Assembly: GCA_945870105.1 (NCBI GenBank)
Contig: CAMBRL010000021.1
Span: forward strand, 1 to 33,464
Direction of reading: 5' to 3'
Length of the DNA stretch: 33,464 nt
From: Chitinophaga pinensis
GTDB taxonomy: Bacteria; Bacteroidota; Bacteroidia; SXHM01
Positions 3,778 through 30,905 of this stretch are shown one piece after another. A model generated the notes under the pieces. The model was not told the DNA's origin, made no database searches, and saw only the letters and a program-made list of their open reading frames with translations. How positions within the stretch are numbered: position 1 is the first letter of the stretch; every line of letters starts with the position of its first letter. A program made the translations under genes and the position numbers.

Positions 3778-3838
3778 GTGGGCCCACCTGGGATCGAACC
3801 AGGCACCCATCCGCCTTAGGCGGATTGCTCTAACCGAA
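3778..3838 (-). pseudogene. Partial tRNA copy (3' 61 nt of the tRNA at 4139-4212) with anticodon arm replaced by palindrome ATCCGCCTAAGGCGGAT
   Basis: 3778-3809 is identical to 4138-4169 (32 nt) and 3826-3838 is identical to 4186-4198 (13 nt). The intervening 16 nt (TCCGCCTTAGGCGGAT vs CAGATTATGAGTCTGT) differ but have the same length. It lacks the 5' acceptor strand and part of the D arm. Confidence 0.85.
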
Positions 3839-4069
3839 AGTGTTTTTTAAAAATTCTCGCCCTTTACCACTTTTAAGGAATTTCTCTCTTTTCATTGCTT
3901 CTGCTCGTGTTTCAAATTGTTCGGAATAAACTAATTCCCAGTGACCGTCTTTGCTGGTATACCTGTTTGCGGGAGAATTATGCTCAATAATTCTTCTTTC
4001 AAGGTCATTGGTTTGTCCCTTGTAAAGAATTCCTGAAGAAGTTGACTTTATGACGTAAACAAAAAACAT
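3830..4069 (-). CDS. Stand-alone GIY-YIG family nuclease (UPF0213/YhbQ-like)
   Basis: MFFVYVIKSTSSGILYKGQTNDLERRIIEHNSPANRYTSKDGHWELVYSEQFETRAEAMKREKFLKSGKGREFLKNTFG: GIY-YIG variant (VYVIK..GILYKGQT.DLERRI..HN) and the typical EAMKREK..KS..GR.FL tail. Stop codon TAG lies inside the tRNA-like sequence. Confidence 0.9.
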   Translation of the reverse strand: MFFVYVIKSTSSGILYKGQTNDLERRIIEHNSPANRYTSKDGHWELVYSEQFETRAEAMKREKFLKSGKGREFLKNTFG

Positions 4070-4095
4070 GCGGCTCAATTTTCGGATTGAATCAA

Positions 4096-4126
4096 AACAG
4101 CCATCAGCCTGAGGCGGATGGCTGTT
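4096..4126. repeat. Hairpin AACAGCCATCaGCC-TGA-GGCgGATGGCTGTT upstream of the GIY-YIG ORF
   Basis: Arms 4096-4109/4113-4126 with one A/G mismatch. Core CCATCAGCCTGAGGCGGATGG resembles CCATCCGCCTTAGGCGGATTG at 3807-3827. Confidence 0.8.
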
Positions 4127-4138
4127 GCCAAGAAAAAG

Positions 4139-4212
4139 TGGGCCCACCTGGGATCGAACCAGGCACCCACAGATTATGAGTCTGTTGCTCTAACCGAATG
4201 AGCTATGGGCCC
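4139..4212 (-). tRNA. tRNA with CAT anticodon (elongator Met, or Ile2 if lysidine-modified)
   Basis: Reverse complement GGGCCCATAGCTCATTCGGTTAGAGCAACAGACTCATAATCTGTGGGTGCCTGGTTCGATCCCAGGTGGGCCCA folds with acceptor GGGCCCA/TGGGCCC, anticodon stem ACAGA/TCTGT, loop CTCATAA, T arm CCTGG-TTCGATC-CCAGG. The anticodon stem lacks the initiator GGG/CCC. Confidence 0.93.
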
Positions 4213-30829: not shown

Positions 30830-30901
30830 GGTTTCGTAGTTCAATGGATAGAATAGAAGTTTCCTAAACTTTTGATCCCAGTTCGATTCTGGGCGAGACT
30901 A
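30830..30901 (+). tRNA. tRNA-Arg (CCT)
   Basis: GGTTTCGTAGTTCAATGGATAGAATAGAAGTTTCCTAAACTTTTGATCCCAGTTCGATTCTGGGCGAGACTA: acceptor GGTTTCG/CGAGACT (two wobbles), anticodon loop TTCCTAA, T arm CCCAG-TTCGATT-CTGGG. Confidence 0.93.
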
Positions 30902-30905
30902 CTTG

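Follow-up and report, generated by a model that had tools for sequence, protein, structure and literature searches.

A family of minimal GIY-YIG elements, probably homing-like and target-specific, in tRNA genes of Bacteroidota

Across the Bacteroidota, genes for a minimal GIY-YIG nuclease are found beside tRNA genes, enclosed between an intact tRNA and a further, broken version of it. The best explanation for this arrangement, to which we assign a probability of about two in three, is a homing-like, target-specific family of GIY-YIG elements that inserts in tRNA genes and leaves one intact tRNA behind. With regard to its parts, the view that the unit is a target-specific mobile element can be held with considerable confidence, and it is reasonably probable that the unit moves by means of cleavage and repair of the tRNA gene, the cleavage itself being inferred.

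The unit was recognized in the window, by which we mean the whole 33,464-nt stretch of a Chitinophaga pinensis contig that was analysed. On the minus strand, an intact tRNA(CAT) at 4212-4138 is followed by a terminator-like hairpin at about 4128-4094 (an inverted repeat, z = -5.0), by the 79-residue reading frame of the GIY-YIG nuclease at 4069-3830 (PF01541, E = 1.1e-16), and by a broken copy of the tRNA at 3838-3778 that retains tRNA positions 15-28 and 44-75. At 3777-3749, an inverted repeat and the T's behind it represent the original terminator of the tRNA, which is now located 3' of the broken copy. This order had been proposed in the first-pass annotation, and the hairpin, the nuclease gene and, by repeat and inverted-repeat analysis, the partial copy with its terminator were all recovered where it had placed them. 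The tRNA was likewise found, although ARAGORN ends it at 4138 and not at 4139. The two copies share exact direct repeats of 32 nt (3778-3809 and 4138-4169), as proposed, and of 14 nt (3825-3838 and 4185-4198), where 13 nt had been reported, both with a spacing of 360 nt. The stop codon of the nuclease, TAG, is indeed supplied by the duplicated D-loop sequence, and a stop inside tRNA-derived sequence is found in 40 of the 80 scored loci having tRNA sequence downstream.

In the broken copy, the 17-nt anticodon arm (ACAGACTCATAATCTGT) is swapped for a 17-nt palindrome, ATCCGCCTAAGGCGGAT, at 3825-3809 on the minus strand, with no difference in base count. The 15-nt core of this palindrome gives a single match in the window, with none expected from shuffled sequence, and replacement of the anticodon arm by a palindrome is also found in L013, a tRNA-Phe locus, and in L044. 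The inner part of the hairpin that follows the intact tRNA is similar to the ATCCGCCTNAGGCGGAT palindrome. The tRNA(CAT) of the window starts with GGGCCC, which sets it apart from the initiator (CGCGG) and GGCGGGGTAGCT Met tRNAs of the Met-type loci, and from its sequence is possibly a tRNA-Ile2. The second tRNA of the window, a tRNA-Arg at 30830-30902, has no comparable unit beside it. The palindrome, together with the mirror layouts and the correspondence of nuclease clades to tRNA types described below, lies beyond what the first-pass annotation had put forward. Two more familiar identities for the unit were rejected. It is not a tRNA-integrating genomic island, as the sole reading frame between the tRNA copies is the 79-residue GIY-YIG protein and there is no integrase, and it is not a group I intron in a tRNA gene, as an uninterrupted tRNA adjoins the element.

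The same locus can be found without the insert. Through the neighbouring HAD-type hydrolase gene, the orthologous locus was located in four congeneric genomes, and in three of these (L043, L045 and L046) the terminator follows the tRNA directly; there is no insert, and the hairpin seen at 4128-4094 is absent. The terminator of L043 (AAAAAAAGCTCC...) is the one now found 3' of the broken copy in the window, and the intact tRNA of the window is identical to that of L043. These loci are the empty sites that an insertion predicts, and with them the sporadic presence and empty allelic sites expected of a homing element are observed. The fourth orthologue, L044, reflects a separate event, in which a broken copy with two palindromes lies upstream of the intact tRNA and the nuclease gene is absent; the broken copy is at about 1285-1455 of that locus. 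In the element-bearing allele, the broken copy is interrupted by the palindrome, and the neighbouring intact tRNA is unchanged relative to the empty congeners. Because the intact tRNA equals the tRNA of the empty congeners, the homing-like reading gives no account of how a cell with the element avoids cutting of its own tRNA gene.

Homologues were collected by class-wide and phylum-wide searches, supplemented with regions further down the match list, giving 99 scored loci (two of these, L063 and L068, repeat L023 and L041; they are counted in the 99 and excluded from the tree). A tRNA lies within 250 nt of the nuclease gene in 86 of the 99, always on the same strand (86/86), and 84 of these 86 loci have a second, partial copy of the adjacent tRNA, with 20 anticodon types represented. 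By comparison, when 433 kb of the source genome were sampled, only around 0.4% of positions were this close to a tRNA. Both this enrichment and the empty sites support the earlier inference that a minimal element has inserted at the tRNA and carried or duplicated part of it. No tRNA is nearby in the remaining 13 loci, six of which are at contig ends, and none was found near the distant, low-scoring GIY-YIG paralogues of the genus (L002 and L005-L012). Further examples include a tRNA-Leu unit in the source genome itself (L003, G000:C50), in which the terminator is duplicated as well, and a tRNA-Arg unit in a congener (L004). At L003, one element has the palindrome TCCCGATAGCTATCGGGA on either side, once within the D loop of a 5' fragment of tRNA-Leu and once within the T arm of a 3' fragment.

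The units measure about 315-450 bp, harbor a single gene and adopt one of two layouts. Read downstream, the order is intact tRNA, nuclease gene and broken 3' part in 58 loci, and broken 5' part, nuclease gene and intact tRNA in 28 loci. Duplication of the leader or terminator is frequent, and tandem arrays are common, with identical units for example in those of 5 x 450 bp in G577 and 5 x 315 bp in G632. Because the arrangement recurs in genomes assembled as one contig, including these two, chance duplication and assembly artefact were rejected as explanations. Assemblies are seen to break beside units at L087, L100, L112 and other contig ends, and the number of units in draft genomes is therefore probably underestimated.

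The nuclease itself consists of little more than the catalytic domain, without a separate DNA-binding domain to account for specificity. In an alignment of 20 homologues, Y5, Y16, G18, R26, H30 and E62 are invariant, and the reading frame in the window has what defines the GIY-YIG superfamily, namely the domain and its catalytic residues (two Tyr, Gly, Arg and Glu). The nuclease genes are under purifying selection, with dN/dS below 1 in all 45 independent pairs (median 0.15), from which it follows that they are functional. Searches for carriage by a phage or plasmid gave only distant matches, without a close relative in phage or viral records, and such carriage was rejected on this ground; Seg proteins of T-even phages were not among the phage matches, so that a close relation to the SegB family is not supported.

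On the nuclease tree, the amino acid of the adjacent tRNA requires 23 changes (retention index 0.78, z = -16.4) and the host family requires 52 (retention index 0.44, z = -7.3), and the tRNA amino acid is thus far more strongly clustered on the tree than is the host family. The tree was used for these clustering statistics only, because it rests on 76 columns and many of its forks are open. The large Met clade encompasses 16 nucleases spanning eight host families, so that the target specificity expected of a homing element is kept across a change of host. The window nuclease falls outside this clade, beside a tRNA-Phe element, and the tRNA(CAT) beside it differs in sequence type from the tRNAs of the Met clade. 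In a prospective test, GTDB genomes were searched with Met-clade proteins alone, yielding 79 loci, of which 65 have an adjacent tRNA, every one on the same strand. This is tRNA(CAT), initiator or elongator, in 62 of the 65 and tRNA-Asn in the other three, which are in Cloacimonadota; a partial tRNA copy is present in 64 of the 65. The hosts include Balneola, Pedobacter, Cyclobacterium and Niastella, as well as MAGs labelled Marinimicrobia, KSB1 and Cloacimonadota. Three of the 79 loci, L167, L172 and L178 of Niabella ginsengisoli GR10-1, lie on contigs that are nearly identical through all flanks; they were rejected as independent insertions, are probably one locus assembled three times and, because of this near-identity, were not used as evidence of mobility.

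These observations bear on the simplest alternative, in which tRNA genes undergo ordinary tandem duplication, the extra copy decays, and nuclease genes gather as neutral cargo or serve a host function. Tandem copies without a nuclease do exist, as this would have it. Neutral duplication does not, however, lead one to expect a single strand orientation and two fixed layouts, nor the co-specificity of nuclease and tRNA across host families, the strong purifying selection, or broken copies that are near identical to the intact tRNA apart from a structured insert. We consider it improbable and disfavour it, the homing-like, target-specific element being the better fit to the facts.

The structured inserts were examined in 153 distinct cases, in which they interrupt the anticodon arm 79 times, the D arm 38 times and the T arm 35 times; because detection needs matching flanks, the ends of the tRNA are under-sampled. 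Of the 112 distinct inserts of 13-30 nt, 64 can form five or all of their six terminal base pairs, against a shuffled mean of 1.2. There are 19 different arm sequences among the paired inserts, and the stems differ by compensatory changes. In the Met elements the sequence most often reads CATA|TCCGCC-N4-GGCGGA|C, with the palindrome directly 3' of the anticodon and one A. When 396 genomes were searched for the Met palindrome in a tRNA-Met context, without reference to the nuclease, 18 sites were found in 11 genomes, all 11 of which carry the nuclease family. Eleven of the 18 sites are beside a nuclease gene, and the other seven, three of them single and four of them in one array, all adjoin an intact tRNA-Met. 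This array (L222:1350-1960, in G156) has four broken tRNA-Met copies, without a nuclease, upstream of the intact tRNA-Met, and the copies vary in the D arm, where TCCCGATAGATATCGGGA is either present or absent. The spacer, read by eye, is similar to the C-terminal tail of the nuclease, a resemblance that suggests the array may be a deletion derivative.

The same palindromes occur also away from tRNAs in family-bearing genomes. In the source genome, for which the background was drawn from 433 kb of sequence and a pattern search, TCCGCCTNAGGCGGA palindromes are located off tRNAs at L120:15268, L121:13938, L122:307 and L130:1461, and at least two of the four are nested within another inverted repeat, in its stem or its loop. 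These palindromes are central to a second alternative, in which the nuclease is directed by structure, acting on the hairpins that tRNA arms and palindromes form when extruded in single-stranded or cruciform DNA. On this view, the true mobile or cis-acting part, akin to REP sequences, would be the palindrome, with tRNA genes targeted as rows of hairpins. The closest sequences of solved structure are indeed those of structure-specific nucleases, UPF0213 (1zg2 and 1ywl, E about 1e-12) and then SLX1 (E of 1e-6 to 1e-4), inserts are found in the D, anticodon and T arms alike, nuclease-less copies retain both palindrome and tRNA, and genomic palindromes elsewhere often lie in the loops of other hairpins. 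The TCCGCC/GGCGGA palindrome is also commoner in 25 family-rich genomes (1.76 per Mb) than in 20 without the family (0.25 per Mb, p = 9e-4), with an excess that remains within the class once known in-element copies are removed (p = 0.013). Yet this comparison involves only a single stem family and is confounded by phylogeny, its 20 family-free genomes are simply those that happened to be listed, and SLX1-type specificity is inferred from sequence similarity alone. Structure-directed action does not by itself account for the restriction of each nuclease clade to one tRNA type, and we regard it as unlikely, though it is the most credible of the alternatives.

A third possibility is that the nuclease works on RNA, with its cognate tRNA, or an RNA resembling a tRNA, as the substrate that it cuts, for instance in defence, and the broken copy as a decoy or regulator. 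We know of no RNase activity in this GIY-YIG subfamily, which counts against the idea, and neither empty sites, nuclease-less arrays nor duplicated tRNA leaders and terminators are predicted by it. The maintenance of the palindrome as a hairpin through compensatory changes and the shared strand of nuclease and tRNA would be consistent with it, as would the fusion of an SLX1-type GIY-YIG protein to a TrmH-like tRNA methylase domain recorded in the 2006 survey of the superfamily (PMC1564403). On balance it seems the least plausible of the readings considered, and only a very slight one.

For the homing-like element, the following course of events can be envisaged. The minimal GIY-YIG endonuclease would cut its cognate tRNA gene within a tRNA arm, at a site that is itself inferred, and the break would be repaired from an element-bearing copy by means of the tRNA halves on either side of the nuclease gene, a repair route that is equally an inference. 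A second tRNA copy, interrupted by the hairpin palindrome, would remain. Crossover on one or the other side of the palindrome could give rise to the two mirror layouts, and recombination among units to the tandem arrays and nuclease-less copies. The palindrome may serve as a binding site for the nuclease or as a block to re-cutting, and this role, like self-immunity, is inferred. Since the target tRNA is in part duplicated, in tandem, around the element, the cell always retains one intact copy. Spread stimulated by the nuclease, as the first-pass annotation had supposed, stays at the level of inference. Besides the unchanged intact tRNA, the absence of a separate DNA-binding domain, the palindromes located off tRNAs and the 13 loci without a tRNA nearby count against this account.

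The nearest precedent is SegB of phages T4 and T6, a free-standing GIY-YIG homing endonuclease that cleaves within tRNA genes and drives tandem tRNA-segB amplification using microhomology between tRNA and nuclease gene (PMC13096335). Both systems have a GIY-YIG gene adjoining tRNA genes and tandem units of tRNA and nuclease. SegB, however, belongs to the tRNA array of a lytic phage, with no palindrome-broken tRNA copy described (PMC13096335), whereas the present units are chromosomal, encode a smaller protein and have one target tRNA per nuclease clade. Integrative elements that attach at tRNA genes also carry part of the tRNA, rebuild the intact gene and leave a displaced fragment, but the present units have no integrase, are below 0.5 kb, form tandem arrays, harbor a hairpin palindrome in the fragment, and may displace either the 5' or the 3' part. 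The UPF0213 and SLX1 nucleases, which provide the best sequence matches among solved structures, are to our knowledge not mobile. Short dispersed palindromes are linked to a nuclease or transposase family in the REP/RAYT system, where RAYT is an HUH tyrosine transposase, and the Rickettsia palindromic elements (RPE) are palindromes inserted in genes; the present units differ from both in being GIY-YIG-based and tied to tRNA copies. No description of the tRNA-GIY-YIG-broken tRNA arrangement was found in open PMC text, closed-access papers and preprints being outside this scope. The 2006 superfamily survey mentions nothing like it (PMC1564403), and a 2023 paper on tRNA fragments mentions neither GIY-YIG nor Bacteroidota.

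What emerges appears to be an extensive and mostly undescribed family of very small mobile elements, every kind of which is bound to a single tRNA. Only tentatively, and with rather less than even confidence, would we describe it as a new selfish class that is widely distributed among Bacteroidota and extends to related phyla. In this reading the mobile unit is a tRNA gene copy interrupted by a hairpin; a minimal GIY-YIG nuclease specific for the tRNA would move it and, acting in trans, would also move derivatives that lack the nuclease, and the palindrome would be the means by which the nuclease recognizes or spares its site. The findings suggest SegB-like behaviour in bacterial chromosomes, and nuclease clades that track single tRNA types suggest a programmable-like recognition by a domain of only around 80 residues. 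The elements are also a possible source of tRNA fragments near tRNA genes and of assembly breaks at some tRNA loci. Together, the observations point to a mobile element that ranks among the smallest and commonest of a major bacterial group, residing inside essential genes and regenerating them.
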